Source: Oscillospiraceae bacterium (GTDB taxonomy: Bacteria > Bacillota > Clostridia > Oscillospirales > Oscillospiraceae). Taken from it: a stretch of DNA of 35,549 nucleotides. Below, piece after piece: positions 3,796 to 35,125 of this stretch. The notes beneath the pieces are model-generated. The model had not been told where the DNA came from. It searched no databases and was given only the letters and a program-made list of their open reading frames with translations. The translations under genes and the position numbers were made by a program. The stretch lies in assembly GCA_016292255.1 (NCBI GenBank), contig JAEEZZ010000145.1, forward strand, positions 1-35,549, written 5' to 3'. Positions within the stretch are counted from its first letter, which is position 1. Every line of letters starts with the position of its first letter.

Positions 3796-3818
3796 ACTCC
3801 AGAACTGAATCCAGTATT

Positions 3819-3925
3819 TCTTCAGGGCAGGGTGCGATTCCCGACCGGCGGTGAGAGCCCGCGAGCCTTTGGGCAGACCCGGTGGAACTCCGGAGCCGAC
3901 AGTACAGTCTGGATGGAAGAAGAAG
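3819..3925 (+). ncRNA. FMN riboswitch (RFN element)
   Basis: The conserved RFN blocks are all present in order: CAGGGCAGGGTG, CCCGACCGGCGGT, GAGCCCGCGAGC, GCAGACCCGGTG, AACTCCGGAGCCGACAG and TACAGTCTGGATG. This RNA binds flavin mononucleotide and, in Firmicutes, switches off downstream riboflavin genes. Here it precedes ribU, so high FMN should reduce riboflavin uptake. The terminator hairpin after it (3949-3982) supports transcriptional control. Confidence 0.95.
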
Positions 3926-3948
3926 CTGTTCATTGCACGTCAATGGGT

Positions 3949-3999: not shown

Positions 4000-4698
4000 T
4001 TGAGAGCAACAACGCAGTTTATCCTGATCTGTTTTTCCGTCGTGGCAGGGCTGCTGCTCCTGGCCGGTCTGTATGAGCACTTTTTCTGCAAGGACCGGCT
4101 GCGGCTGTCCTCGTCCAAGTACATCACCACGGTAGCTGTTTCCGCCGCCCTGGCGGGGCTGCTCATGCTGCTGGAGCTTCCCCTGGTGTTCCTGGCCCCG
4201 GATTTCTACAAGGTCGATCTTTCGGAGCTGCCGGTGCTGATCTGCTCCTTCTACCTGGGGCCGGTGGCAGGCATTCTGACCGAGTTCCTGAAAATCATGA
4301 TCAAGCTGGTGCTGAAGCCGTCCACCACCGCTTTCGTGGGCGAGCTGGCGAACTTCTCCATCGGCTGCGCCATCGTCCTGCCCGCGTCCATGATCTATCA
4401 CCGCATCCGGACGAAGGGCGGCGCTGTGGCGGGGATGATCGTCGGCACCCTGGTCATGGCAATCTTCGGCAGTCTGTTCAACGCGGTCTACCTGCTGCCC
4501 GCCTACTCCGAAATGTACCACTGGCCCCTGCAGGCCATCGTGGCCAAGGGAACGGAGATCAACAGCCACATCACCGGCGTCTATTCCTTCGTTCTGCTGG
4601 CGGTTGCGCCGCTGAATCTGATCAAGGGTACGGTGGTCAGCATTCTGACCTTCCTGCTCTACAAGCGCATCCGGCCCATCATGTTCAAGCGAAGCTGA
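4000..4698 (+). CDS. ribU: Riboflavin transporter RibU, ECF S component
   Basis: This 232-residue membrane protein is the substrate-binding S component of an energy-coupling-factor transporter that imports riboflavin. The FMN riboswitch directly upstream and the conserved run VLICSFYLGPVAGILTEFLK, then FVGELANF, support RibU. About six hydrophobic helices are visible. The start is the TTG at 4000, with GGAGGT 7 bases upstream (3987-3992); no ATG is well placed. An extra N-terminal helix precedes the core, slightly longer than is typical. The ECF energising components are not in the window, which is normal because they are shared by several S components. A strong terminator follows. Confidence 0.92.
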   Translation: MRATTQFILICFSVVAGLLLLAGLYEHFFCKDRLRLSSSKYITTVAVSAALAGLLMLLELPLVFLAPDFYKVDLSELPVLICSFYLGPVAGILTEFLKIMIKLVLKPSTTAFVGELANFSIGCAIVLPASMIYHRIRTKGGAVAGMIVGTLVMAIFGSLFNAVYLLPAYSEMYHWPLQAIVAKGTEINSHITGVYSFVLLAVAPLNLIKGTVVSILTFLLYKRIRPIMFKRS

Positions 4699-7313: not shown

Positions 7314-7448
7314 CGAAACGCAAAACGAAAAACAGAAAACGAAAAACTAAGGTATTTTTCAATTCTTCGAATTGAAAAATCATTTTATTTCGTCCCGCAG
7401 GGACACCTCAATTTTTCGTTTTGCGTTCTACGTTTTTCGTTTTTCTCA
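7314..7448. mobile_element. Heptamer-armed inverted-repeat element between spmA and spmB
   Basis: The left arm (7314-7352) is a run of 7-base units such as CAAAACG, AAAAACA, GAAAACG and AAAAACT. The right arm (7406-7448) is the inverted counterpart, with units ATTTTTC, GTTTTGC, GTTCTAC and GTTTTTC. Between them is a palindrome, TTTTTCAATTC with GAATTGAAAAA. The spmA stop codon lies inside the element, so its tail is encoded by it. No protein of its own is encoded. Confidence 0.75.
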
Positions 7449-15573: not shown

Positions 15574-17619
<2,046 letters not shown>

Positions 17620-18432: not shown

Positions 18433-18453
18433 GCCCGTCCCAGCGTGTCAAAA

Positions 18454-18680
18454 AAGTTGAAAGTTGAAAATTGAGAATTGAAAGTTGTGGTATCGTTCAA
18501 ATTGCCATTTGACCGATGAGAAGAAAAGTGGAGAATTCCAGCTCAATTATCCCTTTTGTTGTGTATCTCAGGTCAAAAAAGCGGAAAGAGCCTGTTTCGC
18601 AGCTTAGATTTCCTTTTTTTAAATGGCAATTTAAAAAACCCCTTCATTTTCAACTTTCAACTTTCAATTCTCAATTCTAC
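18454..18680. mobile_element. Heptamer-armed inverted-repeat element downstream of the DUF308 gene
   Basis: The left arm (18454-18488) is a run of AGTTGAA, AATTGAG and AATTGAA units. The right arm (18647-18680) is its inverted copy. A second inverted pair further in, AAATTGCCATTT (18499-18510) against AAATGGCAATTT (18621-18632), ties the arms to one element of about 227 bases. The interior carries no convincing reading frame. It fills most of the 388-base gap between the DUF308 gene and rpmB. Confidence 0.8.
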
Positions 18681-18746
18681 CTGCATCCGGGAAAAATGAA
18701 TGCGGGAAGCTCTTTGACAGTCTGGGACAGGAACCCCGTCCCTTTT

Positions 18747-18820: not shown

Positions 18821-19009
18821 TCAGATAGCCCGCTCAACCTTGTTGGAGCGGAGACATCTCGTACAAACGTATACATGGCGGGGAGTACCGTCGACGATCG
18901 CCTTGACGCGCTTGACATTGGGCTTCCACATTCTGTTGGCACGTCTGTGGGAGTGGGAGACCTTGATACCGAAAGTCACGCCCTTGCCGCAAATATCGCA
19001 CTTAGCCAT
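18821..19009 (-). CDS. rpmB: Large-subunit ribosomal protein bL28
   Basis: This 62-residue protein of the 50S subunit begins MAKCDICGKGVTFG and contains SHSHRRANRMWKPNVK, the family signature. It is the zinc-binding (C+) form, with four cysteines in two CxxC pairs (CDIC and CTRC). In many bacteria a C- form replaces this under zinc shortage; no second copy is in the window. The start at 19009 follows GGAGGT by 7 bases. It is a single gene with its own promoter and terminator. Confidence 0.96.
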   Translation of the reverse strand: MAKCDICGKGVTFGIKVSHSHRRANRMWKPNVKRVKAIVDGTPRHVYVCTRCLRSNKVERAI

Positions 19010-23289: not shown

Positions 23290-23370
23290 GTAGTATTTTT
23301 CATTTTTTATGTTAGTTGCAATTTGGGGACCCGGAAAACACAATCACACGATGCGCTGTTCGTACCGGGC

Positions 23371-23577
23371 AATAGGCACCAGGCATCAGGCATCAGGCAC
23401 CGCTTATAGAGGACAGCGCCATCGAAGCCCCACACCCCGTTCGATGGTGCTTTCATATCAGAGGTAATCCAAATAGTGTAATCGCTCAGTATGATCGCAG
23501 TGACCGCTGAACAGTTTCCGAACGGGGCAAATACCCACAGGAACAGACGCAGTTGCAGGCGGTGCCTGATGCCTGAA
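23371..23577. mobile_element. Heptamer-armed inverted-repeat element in the 528-base gap before the giant zinc-ribbon gene
   Basis: The left arm has units GGCACCA, GGCATCA, GGCATCA and GGCACCG (23375-23402). The right arm (23560-23577) reads CGGTGCC, TGATGCC and TGA, its inverted copy. Inside, CCATCGAA (23419-23426) pairs with TTCGATGG (23440-23447). No coding potential is seen. The rest of the gap holds only the two flanking promoters. Confidence 0.7.
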
Positions 23578-32181: not shown

Positions 32182-33486
32182 TCAGTCCTCAAGCAGAGAG
32201 GTCTTGTAGAGGAAGGTCATGATCTGCGCGCGGGTGCAGGTGTTGTTCACACCGAAGAGGCCGTCGCCCACGCCCTTGGTGATCCCGTTCTCCGCGGCCC
32301 AGAGGATCGACTTGAAGAACCAGTCGTTGGGCGTCACGTCGTCAAAGGGGCTCTCCGTCGAATTCGGTGCGGGCTTGCCCTCGGAGGCCCAGAGGAAGGT
32401 CATGGCCTGGGCGCGGGTGCAGCTCTGGCCCACGCCGAAGATGCCGCCGCCCATGCCGCTTGCGATCTTATTCTCCGAGGCCCACATAACAGCCTTGAAG
32501 AACCAGTCGTTGGGCGTCACGTCGCTGAAATTGCTTTCCGTTGTCTGGGGCTCCGGCTTGCCGTTGGCAGCCCAGAGGAAGGTCACGATCTGCTCGCGGG
32601 TGCAGTCGGCGTGGGGGGAGAAATGGGTATCATCCGTGCCCTTGGTCACAGGGGGCTTCTGGCTGATGGCCCACATCACGGGCTTGAAGAAGTAGTCTCC
32701 CGCCAGAACGTCCACGAAGGGATTCTCCTTCTTTGGGATCGTTTCTGTTTTGGTTTCGTGGCAGCGCCGGCAGCTATACATGATCGAGCCGTCGTCCAGG
32801 TAGGTCGCTTCCTGAAGCACCGTACCGTCGTCCCAGTCGTGCCCCAGCTTTGCGATGGTCTCCTCTCCTGCCAGTGCGCCGGTGCGGAGGCCCACATAGG
32901 CCTGTTTGCCTTCCGTGGTGCAGCCGGGCTCCTCAATGATCTGAATGGGTGCGGGCCAGACGTCGTCCTCTTTGGTCGCCACAAAGACGCCGTTCTCCAG
33001 CTTGACCGCGTAGACCACGAAGGCGTTCTCCTCGGATTCCTCGTCGGGAGCGGGGCGCATGGCGTCGTCCACGAAGGACAGGGGCGCGGTATGGGCGTCG
33101 GTGGCCTCCAGGCTGAATGTGCCGTTGCCGTTGCCGAACATCACGGTGTTGGCGCTTTCGGTGTTCAGGGTGATCTTGTAGTAGTTATGGCCGCGCATTT
33201 CAGTGCCCTCAGCCTCGGTCATGGGGCCGCCGGGATAGCCAAGATCCTCAGCAGTCTCCATCATACCGTCTCCGACGGCACCGTCGTAGCAGTAGACGTA
33301 CAGGCCATCCGTGTCCATCTCGTCCACAAAGTAGATGTCGATGTCCTCGGAGGTTTCCTCCGCCTCCCCATCTTCCCAAACGGGGGCGCCGATGCTCTCC
33401 TGTGCGGCAGCAGTCAGGCTCAGGCCGCTGAGCAGCGTAACGAGCATGGCAAGGATAAGGAGCATACTTACAGAGCGTTTGTTCAT
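32182..33486 (-). CDS. Secreted S-layer-homology (SLH) protein
   Basis: This 434-residue protein has a signal peptide (MNKRSVSMLLILAMLVTLLS, cleavage near AAAQE). An acidic N-terminal domain to about 190 contains a carbohydrate-binding-like or starch-binding-like stretch (IDIYFVDEMDTDGLYVYCYDG). A GHDWDDG...CRRCHETKTETI module follows, seen in many gut Firmicutes surface proteins. Three SLH repeats close the protein from about 245, including FSDVTPNDWFFKAVMWASEN and FDDVTPNDWFFKSILWAAEN. SLH domains hold proteins to pyruvylated wall polymers. The ATG follows GAGGAGG. The ligand is unknown. Confidence 0.9.
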   Translation of the reverse strand: MNKRSVSMLLILAMLVTLLSGLSLTAAAQESIGAPVWEDGEAEETSEDIDIYFVDEMDTDGLYVYCYDGAVGDGMMETAEDLGYPGGPMTEAEGTEMRGHNYYKITLNTESANTVMFGNGNGTFSLEATDAHTAPLSFVDDAMRPAPDEESEENAFVVYAVKLENGVFVATKEDDVWPAPIQIIEEPGCTTEGKQAYVGLRTGALAGEETIAKLGHDWDDGTVLQEATYLDDGSIMYSCRRCHETKTETIPKKENPFVDVLAGDYFFKPVMWAISQKPPVTKGTDDTHFSPHADCTREQIVTFLWAANGKPEPQTTESNFSDVTPNDWFFKAVMWASENKIASGMGGGIFGVGQSCTRAQAMTFLWASEGKPAPNSTESPFDDVTPNDWFFKSILWAAENGITKGVGDGLFGVNNTCTRAQIMTFLYKTSLLED

Positions 33487-33709: not shown

Positions 33710-33994
33710 ATGCCGCCATGCAGATATACGGATCTGAGATGCAAGGAAGTCATCAACGTCTGCGACGGGTGCCGGCTGGGCTGTGTCTGCGATGTGGAGG
33801 TGGAGCTCCCCGAGGGCCGGGTCTGCGCCATCTGGGTGCCGGGGCCCTGGCGCTGGCTGGGGCTCTTCGGTCACGACGGGTACTACCGCATTCCCTGGTC
33901 CTGCATCCGGCGCGCCGGAGACGACATCATTCTGGTGGACGTGGAGCTCTCCGGCTGCCGGGTGCGCCGGGAATGGCGGAGGCCACGAGGGTGA
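33710..33994 (+). CDS. YlmC/YmxH-family PRC-barrel sporulation protein
   Basis: This 94-residue protein contains LRCKEVINVCDGCRLGCVCDVEV, GRVCAIWVPG and DDIILVDVEL, which match the small PRC-barrel proteins YlmC and YmxH of sporulating Firmicutes. Their role is not settled. The start at 33710 is preferred to the ATG at 33704, because GGGAGGG ends right at 33703 and is only properly spaced from 33710. Unusually many cysteines (six, versus few in typical members) are present. The TGA stop (33992-33994) abuts the first unit of a heptamer repeat run. Confidence 0.85.
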   Translation: MPPCRYTDLRCKEVINVCDGCRLGCVCDVEVELPEGRVCAIWVPGPWRWLGLFGHDGYYRIPWSCIRRAGDDIILVDVELSGCRVRREWRRPRG

Positions 33995-34041
33995 ATGCAG
34001 AATGCAAAATGCAAAATGCAGAATGCAGAACGCAAAAAACA
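33993..34041. repeat. Tandem heptamer run after the ylmC-like gene
   Basis: Seven 7-base units follow one another: GAATGCA twice, AAATGCA twice, GAATGCA, GAACGCA and AAAAACA. No inverted second arm is found nearby, so this is a single arm or a remnant of the paired elements at 7314, 18454 and 23371. Confidence 0.85.
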
Positions 34042-34111
34042 TGAAAAAATAGCGGGAACAAATGCGGTTTTTCATCGTCTAACCCCCATCCAGATGAGGG
34101 AGGAATCATCC

Positions 34112-35125
34112 ATGAAAAAACGAATTTGCATTCTGCTTGCCGTTCTGATGCTGCTGGGCCTCAGCGCCTGCAAAGCCAATGAGGCGGCCGAAAAGACCCG
34201 CGGCGTATACGCCGAGACCTCCGCCCCCCAGCGCGTTGCGGAGTACGAGGTGAGCGACGACGTCTTCTACGGCAATGCTGCCTCCGGCGAAAACCTGAAT
34301 ACTTATTCCTATTATTCCCACAGCAAAAGCTACAACGAGACACCCGTGAGCGCGACCGACCGCAGCACCGAAACGCCCGCCGCGGAGACCGGCCGGAAGC
34401 TCATCCGCAAGATCAGCCTGATCGTGGAGACCGACGACTACCAGGCCTTTCTCGACGCCATCACCGCAAAGCTGTTGGCGCTGGGCGGATACATCGAAGA
34501 CATGGAGGCCAGCAACTCCGGCAGAACGCCCAGGGCGACCATCATCGTCCGCGTTCCCGCCGACCAGCTGAGCACCCTCACCGAGAGCGTCTCCGGCATC
34601 GGCAACGTCACCTACAAGCACGAATCCCAGCAGGACGTCACCCTGCAGTACGCGGACACCGAGAGCCACATCGCGGCCCTTCGCACGGAGCAGGATCGGC
34701 TGCTGCAGCTCCTGGGCCAGGCGGAAAACCTGTCTGAGATCCTGGAGATCGAAGACCGGATGACCTATGTGCGCTACCAGCTGGAGAGCTATGAGCGCTC
34801 CCTGCGGGCGCTGTCCAACCAGGTGGAGTACGCCACCGCTACCATTGAGGTCACCCAGGTGGAGGTCTTCACCCCCACCGAGGAGCCGGGCTATTGGGAG
34901 AACATCGGAAACGGGATCCTGGGCAGCTTAAAGGGTCTGTGGGAGTTCGTGACGGAGCTCTTCAGCGACTTCATCATCTTCCTGCCCTACCTGCTGCTGT
35001 TCCTGGGGATCCCGCTGATCGTGCTGATCGTTCTGATCAAGCGCTTCAAGCACAAGCGGCGTGAAAAGAAGGCCGCACGGCAGGCCCAGAGCGCTCCGGA
35101 CGACTCTGGGGAGCAGCCGCGCTGA
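34112..35125 (+). CDS. DUF4349 lipoprotein
   Basis: This 337-residue protein begins MKKRICILLAVLMLLGLSAC; LSAC is a lipobox with Cys at residue 20. The DUF4349 core includes KLIRKISLIVETDDYQAFL and ATIIVRVPADQLSTLTESV, followed by a coiled-coil-like helix (TYVRYQLESYERSLRALSNQ). A membrane segment near the C-terminus (FIIFLPYLLLFLGIPLIVLI) and a basic tail close the protein. It would thus be held by both lipid and helix. The ATG at 34112 follows GGGAGGA. It may be cotranscribed with the ylmC-like gene through the heptamer run. Function unknown. Confidence 0.9.
   Translation: MKKRICILLAVLMLLGLSACKANEAAEKTRGVYAETSAPQRVAEYEVSDDVFYGNAASGENLNTYSYYSHSKSYNETPVSATDRSTETPAAETGRKLIRKISLIVETDDYQAFLDAITAKLLALGGYIEDMEASNSGRTPRATIIVRVPADQLSTLTESVSGIGNVTYKHESQQDVTLQYADTESHIAALRTEQDRLLQLLGQAENLSEILEIEDRMTYVRYQLESYERSLRALSNQVEYATATIEVTQVEVFTPTEEPGYWENIGNGILGSLKGLWEFVTELFSDFIIFLPYLLLFLGIPLIVLIVLIKRFKHKRREKKAARQAQSAPDDSGEQPR

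Follow-up and report, generated by a model that had tools for sequence, protein, structure and literature searches.

Facing heptamer arrays in an Oscillospiraceae intergenic region: a probable gene-less copy of an element built around the gene of the 23S rRNA intervening-sequence protein

What kind of element has two facing arms made of degenerate 7-base units, and how would it have reached an intergenic region? The question is raised by a 35,549-nt stretch of DNA from an Oscillospiraceae bacterium (contig JAEEZZ010000145.1 of assembly GCA_016292255.1; the whole stretch is hereafter the window), in which such arms lie between a DUF308 protein gene and rpmB. A preliminary description, made from the letters, had reported two heptamer arms facing each other across about 160 bases, an inner inverted pair and a recG-rpmB setting, and all three were recovered here (Table 1). 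The arms are separated by 158 nt and form 19 nt of perfect complement, 24 nt at 88% and one ungapped pair of 54 nt at 74%, the last of which takes in the inner AAATTGCCATTT/AAATGGCAATTT. The best inverted score within positions 18441-18735 was 19, compared with a maximum of 12.5 in 60 shuffles and, taken as RNA, the element has a predicted fold of -82.2 kcal/mol (z = -4.6). As argued below, it is probably a non-autonomous, gene-less copy of a larger element whose only gene, so far familiar chiefly from interrupted ribosomal RNA genes, encodes the 23S rRNA intervening-sequence protein (IVP), with copying at the DNA level that IVP would drive.

The source genome contains 12 IVP genes (PF05635), whereas 14 control genomes contained none. 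The heptamer words of all four loci of this kind in the window, designated A, B, D and E, are found again in the flanks of IVP genes in that genome: A, the word of the element itself, at L203 (in degenerate form, recognised by eye), B at L213, D at L202 and E at L208. Inverted heptamer arms of the same word stand beside PF05635 genes of this genome, and the flanks of IVP locus L204 carry inverted arms of a further word, C. At L212 the arms are octamers, yet the hairpin core, CAAATTGCCATTTG, is that of the window element. At L150, one of the A-word loci of named species genomes described below, arrays adjoin a frame that was recognised by eye as the intervening-sequence protein. The full element consists of a heptamer arm, a single gene for the four-helix-bundle protein IVP/S23p (PF05635/TIGR02436) and an inverted heptamer arm, often, in this genus, with a hairpin inside each arm.

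The association was quantified in 71 IVP loci: 12 from the source genome, 29 from its phylum and 30 from genomes of many phyla, the last two sets being the best match per genome in 29 of 34 other phylum genomes and 30 of 40 array-bearing genomes. Of the 71 loci, 51 had a period-7 array no more than 200 nt from the IVP gene: 7/12 in the source genome, 23/29 in its phylum and 21/30 in the named genomes of many phyla. For distant windows of the same loci, examined as two sets, the counts were 4 and 6 of 71. Other periods from 5 to 13 were found near IVP genes 0-2 times per group, and a period-7 array was present in none of 30 flanks of the control gene hprK, a control taken from relatives only, whose intergenic lengths need not match those of the IVP loci. 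Arrays stood on both sides of the gene in 31 loci and were inverted rather than direct in 26 of them (sign test, p = 2e-4). Thirteen two-sided loci came from named genomes, which we take, from record titles and general taxonomy, to span seven phyla. IVP loci tended to have a word of their own (GTGGAGA, GTAGCTG, AGTCAGG, ATGGGGC, CAGACCA and others), and none of the 20 IVP loci scanned had an Rfam rRNA match. At L247 (1450-2060, minus strand), the left part of the IVP element is repeated in tandem and ends inside the gene at a heptamer, which resembles what abortive copying could leave.

A long A-word pattern was found in at least 118 stretches of named species genomes, belonging, among the matches listed, to Bacteroidales, Oscillospiraceae, other Clostridia, cyanobacteria, Acidobacteria, Fibrobacteria, Desulfobacteraceae, Verrucomicrobia, Planctomycetota, Gemmatimonadota, Cloacimonadota, Patescibacteria and others. 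IVP was present in 40 of the 43 such genomes searched, compared with 35 of 199 genomes in the phylum of the source (32 over the family cut-off); since this comparison mixes phyla, weight is put on the within-phylum test and on adjacency. Within the phylum, the A pattern occurred in 4 of 199 genomes, all with IVP (3/3 excluding the source genome). Its reversed form, intended as a control and itself a heptamer array, occurred in seven phylum genomes besides the source, six of which have IVP. Genomes with either pattern carried IVP in 7 of 8 cases, as against 34 of 198 (hypergeometric p = 2e-5, source genome excluded). In the first 80 of the at least 118 A-word loci, 17 pairs of opposed neighbouring arrays began A-rich and ended T-rich, 2 pairs showed the opposite order, and 10 neighbouring arrays shared one orientation.

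The family of the window element has ten copies, itself included, each covering 238-295 of the 295 query bases. Identity to it is 83-97% in the nine others, and most of the 92 genome matches to the query are short matches to the arms. In the ten-copy alignment, conservation extends, with substitutions, from CAGCGTGTCAAA to TTTGACAGTCTG, beyond which the flanks are unrelated; the arm positions of the interval first proposed (18454-18680) hold, but the conserved unit is longer. Its right end has been lost in L280 and L282, copy L278 shows an exact 7-nt loss in the right arm, and left arms carry substitutions between heptamers. Several copies adjoin terminator-like hairpins, as judged by eye. Ten short, dispersed copies with inverted ends are what is expected of a miniature inverted-repeat transposable element (MITE). 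In the window, L038 and L046 the exact outer-repeat pattern marks both ends of the element; seven further stretches have unpaired sites. Outer CAGNNTGTCAAA ends were dropped as a general feature, being absent from other heptamer-armed elements. The words and hairpins of the element are shared with IVP-bearing elements, and IVP is not a known transposase.

Table 1. Positions of the heptamer-armed loci and of neighbouring genes in the window.
Feature	Position	Strand	Remarks
Whole conserved family unit, non-autonomous heptamer-armed element	about 18441-18724	.	~284 bp; 10-copy alignment with flanks
Outer terminal inverted repeat, left, CAGNNTGTCAAA	18441-18452	+	10-copy alignment and end search; substitutions in several copies
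Left arm	18453-18487	+	5 degenerate heptamers (AAAGTTG, AAAATTG, GAATTGA type); Tandem Repeats Finder period 7, 5.0 copies
Left inner hairpin ATCGTTCAAATTGCCATTTGACCGAT	18492-18517	+	1 stem mismatch; core is that of the hairpin adjoining the IVP gene in L212
Right inner hairpin TTTTTTAAATGGCAATTTAAAAAA	18615-18638	-	Loop mirrors that of the left hairpin
Right arm	18646-18676	-	4.4 heptamers, inverted relative to left arm; Tandem Repeats Finder
Outer terminal inverted repeat, right, TTTGACANNCTG	18713-18724	-	Not retained in copies L280, L282
recG	15574-17619	-	Neighbour of the element
DUF308 protein gene, next after recG in the window	ends 18432	+	Neighbour of the element
rpmB	18821-19009	-	Neighbour of the element
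Second heptamer-armed element, word AAACGAA	7316-7445	.	Hairpin 7354-7380; same word beside IVP gene in L208
Third heptamer-armed element, word CAGGCAT	23368-23576	.	Inner CCCCGTTCGATGG, CGAACGGGG; word and inner motifs recur around IVP gene L202 (by eye)
Fourth heptamer locus, word GAATGCA	33993-34136	.	Weakest of the four, 12-nt inverted partner only; word recurs around IVP gene L213

At a threshold of 22 matches in 28, the window gave six peaks at lag 7 and a single one, at lag 9, over the remaining lags from 4 to 12; no lag-7 peak arose in 100 dinucleotide-preserving shuffles of the window. No short period other than 7 is prominent in the window, and chance does not account for the arms. 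Three more period-7 loci with differing heptamers (at 7314, 23371 and 33993), already listed in the preliminary description, were all found; their period is real, and each has, in addition, an inverted partner that had been overlooked (7316-7353/7405-7442, 23386-23403/23559-23576 and 33997-34008/34125-34136). Elsewhere in the window, a 183-base tandem repeat (32208-32605, 2.2 copies) lies within a minus-strand frame with S-layer homology domains. Rfam found no rRNA in the window, its sole matches being a tRNA and an FMN riboswitch, the latter at 3814-3928 on the plus strand.

In a genome sample of 396 kb, comprising the window and 20 stretches picked around A-word hits, there were 80 period-7 arrays at a strict threshold; leaving multiples of 7 aside, no other lag between 4 and 20 gave more than 6. 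A looser threshold gave 110 period-7 arrays, as against 0-10 at periods 4-6, 8-13 and 15. An inverted partner was found within 600 nt for 46 of these 110; when random places in the same stretches were taken instead, the figure was 7 of 110. The vocabulary of words was small (AGTTGAA, AATGCAA, TAATAAG, CAGGCAT, AAACGAA, TGACTGG and others), and the rule that each heptamer contains a stop codon was abandoned, some words having none. Very long CAGGCAT/CAGGGAT arrays were seen in L048 (157-317, with about 23 units, and 4531-4620), and in L044 (3930-4320) and L045 (4640-6900) heptamer arrays lie within mosaics of recurring short GC-rich modules (CCCGTAGGGGCGAGCACC, GTAGCGCGGGCTACCAGCCCGC). The MutL frame of the source genome (L204 1876-3303, minus strand) has B-word heptamer arrays in frame in its linker, where they read QMQNAKCKMQN.

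AT-rich hairpins with a stem of at least 9 numbered 71, after deduplication, in 635 kb of genus loci. Of these, 37 lay within 40 nt of an array, a neighbourhood that makes up 5% of the 635 kb, and several of the remaining 34 were of the same type, apparently near arrays too degenerate to score (by eye). The hairpins near arrays comprised 20 distinct sequences, such as GTTTTTCAAATGGCAATTTGAAAAAC, ATCGTTCAAATGGCAATTTGAACGAT, TTTTGCAGATGGCAATCTGCAAAA and ATTTGCCAATTCGACGAATTGGCAAAT; inside the arms, sequences vary while stems are kept. In gene-less elements with two hairpins, both loops read TGCN when followed inward from their own end of the element (by eye), so that the two ends are mirror images.

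Orthologous intervals were compared in 23 genomes of the genus, 22 with one match each; L349, the second half of a split asd, was excluded. The recG-rpmB interval, which the preliminary description had put forward for a presence/absence comparison, proved unusable: rpmB stands beside hprK in many relatives in the genus, but there is no synteny beyond its 3' end, and no empty site could be read. Presence and absence were instead observed at mutL-miaA and lysC-asd. Between mutL and miaA, the source genome has a 477-bp IVP element, whereas 11 loci have 0-62 bp with no remnant. L311 has a 150-bp gene-less element of word GTGAAGA with a hairpin, L325 an element with GAATGAAG arms, and L306, L307 and L309 have remnants, the interval being unreadable in L324. 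Another one-gene insertion is present in L308, L313 and L317 and, apparently in part, in L315; this is apparently a second one-gene element at the same intergenic site, and its frame, set between long inverted repeats of the TCATTGCGAGCCAGTGCGCAC type in the first three, looks by eye like a GIY-YIG endonuclease.

Between lysC and asd, whole or shortened IVP elements were found in the source genome (L327), L328 and L329, and a remnant in L330. L333 and L336 have gene-less elements of word GACAAGT with the same or decayed hairpins in reverse orientation, and L334, L337 and L340 have other or mixed words. The interval measures 15-16 bp in L341-L345 and 19-228 bp in L331, L332, L335, L338, L339 and L346-L348. 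Of the latter, L331 contains a short TAATAAG-like array and L338 what may be the remnant of an arm. At this one interval, and across one genus, the words AGTTGAA, GACAAGT and AATAGAT surround related hairpins, which agrees with the earlier proposal that unit length and an inverted layout, not sequence, define the family; the search for period-7 inverted arms suggested along with it found copies in both the source genome and its relatives. Presence and absence, together with the differing words at the two intervals, indicate that the elements come and go and that the word changes while the hairpins stay. This pattern would fit repeated insertions at a single site as well as turnover in situ.

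The protein itself matches the family model TIGR02436 (four helix bundle protein) and is related to the solved structures 2rld and 2gsc (XCC0516); a solved relative is pentameric (PMC4990558). We aligned 64 of the 71 IVP copies, leaving out those with in-frame stops (L203, L223, L233, L239) and those that are short or fragmentary (L228, L241, L242). N44, E47 and E70 were present in all 64, Q33 in 63, S40 in 61 and R36 in 56 (with K in 6), and Q33, N44, E47 and E70 were invariant in the 27 aligned for the sequence profile. The spacing of Q33, R36, S40, N44 and E47 is that of one helix face. Going by this pattern of conservation, the residues could form an active site, but a buried polar network fits as well.

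Candidate partner enzymes were sought in 57 IVP-bearing genomes: the source, 38 of the 43 array-bearing genomes (the three without IVP and two with weaker IVP matches were left out) and 18 of the 34 other IVP-bearing genomes of the phylum. RVT_1, the reverse transcriptase domain, had no match in 23 of them, including the single-contig genomes G094 and G138, and two matches in the source genome. Y1 transposase had matches in 41, three weak ones among them in the source genome, and none in 16; 11 genomes, including single-contig G138, had neither, although these absences include draft genomes and count as weak evidence, and the elements may be relics. The three Y1 loci of the source genome had no period-7 array within 3.1-3.3 kb around them. 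Both enzymes were rejected as generally needed partners, reverse transcriptase on the 23 genomes and Y1 on the 16 and on its array-free loci. None of the Y1 genes of the source genome lay near an array, whereas IS200/IS605 or REP/RAYT elements would be expected to have Y1 beside related copies, and the lack of RVT_1 in the 23 genomes, despite its presence in the source, speaks against a diversity-generating retroelement. Avd, the accessory protein of the latter, was not among the matches of a sequence-profile search against PDB at E values up to 10.

The layout, its recurrence across phyla, the orthologous presence and absence, the shared words and hairpins and the unit-wise change are observed, and they lead us to favour, as the probable account, that the window element is a gene-less copy of an IVP element propagated as DNA through IVP. 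The protein is put forward for this role because it is the sole gene seen between the arms, has invariant N, E and E residues and is not always accompanied by reverse transcriptase or Y1. IVP would recognise the folded ends by shape and period, with no fixed sequence, and would drive the copying of elements into new intergenic sites, synthesis being carried out by host replication and repair enzymes. Template switching is a known kind of mutation at imperfect palindromes; if it took place within or between the mirror-image arms during copying, it would produce unit-wise gains and losses, one word common to both arms and word turnover. A bolder form of this account, which we regard as tentative and rather unlikely to hold in full, casts IVP as the enzyme that moves the element, which would then belong to a new and very small class of DNA transposon. 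In that case, a four-helix bundle of about 120 residues with near-invariant Q/N/E/E would recognise ends by shape (a period-7 array and, here, a mirror hairpin) irrespective of their sequence, and intervening sequences, the heptamer repeats of cyanobacteria and Xanthomonas and the bacterial heptamer excess would be products of one class.

Several observations weigh against IVP-driven copying as the source of the element. Array agreement was at least as good in direct as in inverted orientation in 5 of the 31 two-sided loci, only 7 of the 12 IVP genes of the source genome pass the array test, and the hprK control has the limits given above. The arms at L203, the IVP gene of the element's own word, are visible by eye only, and that gene has an in-frame stop. 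Three other IVP loci of the source genome (L205, L207 and L210) have longer, hairpin-containing tandem units (AAGTGATG, TATGAAGTA and AGTTAAGATT types) and no heptamers, besides the octamers of L212, and L229 and L231 have 11-base units. Three of the 43 A-word genomes lack IVP (G256, G258 and G271), as does G194, which has the reversed pattern, and the IVP match of G041, one of the 7 in 8, falls below the family cut-off. The covarying hairpins, which were scored in this genus only, could stem from template-switch mutation without selection. A check for target site duplications had been suggested from the start, and none was clearly recognised by eye in the ten aligned copies with their flanks. 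Further, we know of no catalytic domain in PF05635, and the 12-nt outer inverted repeat of the window family, absent from other heptamer elements, may point to another amplifier.

This last point is the core of one rival, an ordinary MITE in which a conventional transposase acts on the outer CAGNNTGTCAAA ends and the arms and hairpins are IVP-derived passengers. The outer repeat does bound the unit, with substitutions, in most of the ten copies, and its exact pairing in three stretches, beside the seven with unpaired sites, fits such an origin. However, the same hairpins occur in L031 (12866-13090), L049 (6906-7132) and IVP elements, which are without the outer repeat on both sides. No transposase having ends of this kind came up, although no systematic search was made for one, and the IVP link is left unexplained; we consider this reading possible, though well short of probable. 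An RNA-level element, whose arm-folded transcript is cut by RNase III and bound by IVP and then returned to DNA by a reverse transcriptase acting in trans, seems unlikely. It would suit the strong predicted fold, the in vitro RNase III cleavage of the Coxiella intervening sequence at a site in the first heptamer (PMC4990558) and the resemblance of PF05635 to Avd (PMC10053308), even if the Avd model matched L202 far below its cut-off. It is at odds with the genomes lacking RVT_1, single-contig ones included, and with the absence of rRNA from the 20 IVP loci scanned, and mirror-image ends suit recognition of DNA ends.

The same ends tell against a Y1 (HUH/RAYT-like) transposase working in trans on the hairpins, as for REP and IS200/IS605, since IS200/IS605 ends are asymmetric; the hairpins are subterminal and Y1 matches are common (41/57), but with 16 genomes lacking it, 11 of them lacking RVT_1 too, and no arrays near the Y1 loci of the source genome, we find this quite improbable. 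Still smaller chances are given to the two remaining readings. Neutral simple-sequence repeats, with slippage favouring 7-base units and template switching inverting them, would need no element at all. The heptamer excess and a polymerase-footprint idea have been published (as cited in PMC4692102) and unit-wise change is seen in L278, yet nothing in such a process predicts adjacency to one gene family across phyla, conserved hairpins, ten copies or orthologous presence and absence; it is hard to hold as the whole account and may explain word drift. As for a host regulatory structure, namely a bidirectional terminator between convergent genes, the terminator-like hairpins adjoining several copies and the A-rich-first, T-rich-last order of 17 of 19 opposed pairs agree with it, but presence at the same interval differs between sister species and copies 83-97% identical lie in unrelated flanks, so that it too is very improbable.

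Compared with known systems, the IVP element shares with 23S intervening sequences (IVS) the protein family, terminal inverted repeats forming a long stem and tandem heptamers, which change copy number in Coxiella (PMC4990558), where they stand in front of the S23p gene within the IVS (PMC4990558). The same source also names Leptospira and Brucella for IVS with an S23p/IVP gene, and 16S and 23S insertions are described in bacteria of the candidate phyla radiation (PMC11270868). Unlike IVS, which lie inside rRNA genes, the 20 loci scanned had no Rfam rRNA match, and an rRNA-internal location was discarded for the window element itself, given its place between the DUF308 gene and rpmB; the accessible text of these sources makes no mention, for IVS, of mirror hairpins inside the arms, of numerous word families or of gene-less copies. 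The likeness to MITEs lies in short, dispersed, gene-less versions of a larger element with inverted ends, and the difference in arms whose sequence varies per element while period and mirror layout are kept, with no known transposase. Avd of diversity-generating retroelements is a homologous four-helix bundle (PMC10053308), and the NCBIfam Avd model matches L202 at 31 bits, below the cut-off of 80, but no reverse transcriptase gene was seen between the arms and 23 of the 57 IVP genomes lack RVT_1. REP/RAYT and IS200/IS605 are similar in their hairpins near the ends and intergenic spread, and differ in that 16 of 57 IVP genomes lack Y1 and the ends here are mirror-symmetric.

In cyanobacteria, heptamer repeats are named STRR. 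Other examples are GGGAATC in Xanthomonas, GGGGA(C/T)T in Nostoc and TAACTGA in Beggiatoaceae (PMC4692102, PMC4679880). All of these resemble the present arrays in being degenerate 7-base tandem units, mostly intergenic and high in number, but the accessible text of the two sources gives them an unknown or suggested regulatory role and no link to IVP. Paired arms had been thought to be without precedent; this does not stand, as heptamer arrays in Xanthomonas form convergent inverted pairs, in counts of 70 and 75 (PMC4692102), and Coxiella has tandem heptamers ahead of the S23p gene of its intervening sequence (PMC4990558). In the literature searched, which left most subscription journals outside, we found no work joining IVP, the heptamer excess and paired heptamers as a genome-wide element, and IVP and heptamers are joined only within rRNA (PMC4990558). 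Each of the three had been described separately (IVP, the excess of heptamers, and the pairs in Xanthomonas), and we regard the element class that joins them as new. The 23S intervening sequences are probably rRNA-borne members of this class; a stricter view would make the class a new variant of those sequences. IVP is also listed among CRISPR-associated proteins in a figure legend (PMC10910872), and tandem arms around IVP genes mistaken for CRISPR arrays might be a reason for that listing.

Two matters are described in the sources as unexplained: the heptamer excess (PMC4692102), and what rRNA intervening sequences do and how they arose (PMC4990558). One shared element class would make the two testable together, with one gene and one layout to look for in any genome. 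If the proposed account is true, the ends of these elements are recognised by period and shape instead of sequence, and the IVP element could help to explain why 7-base repeats are so common in bacteria.
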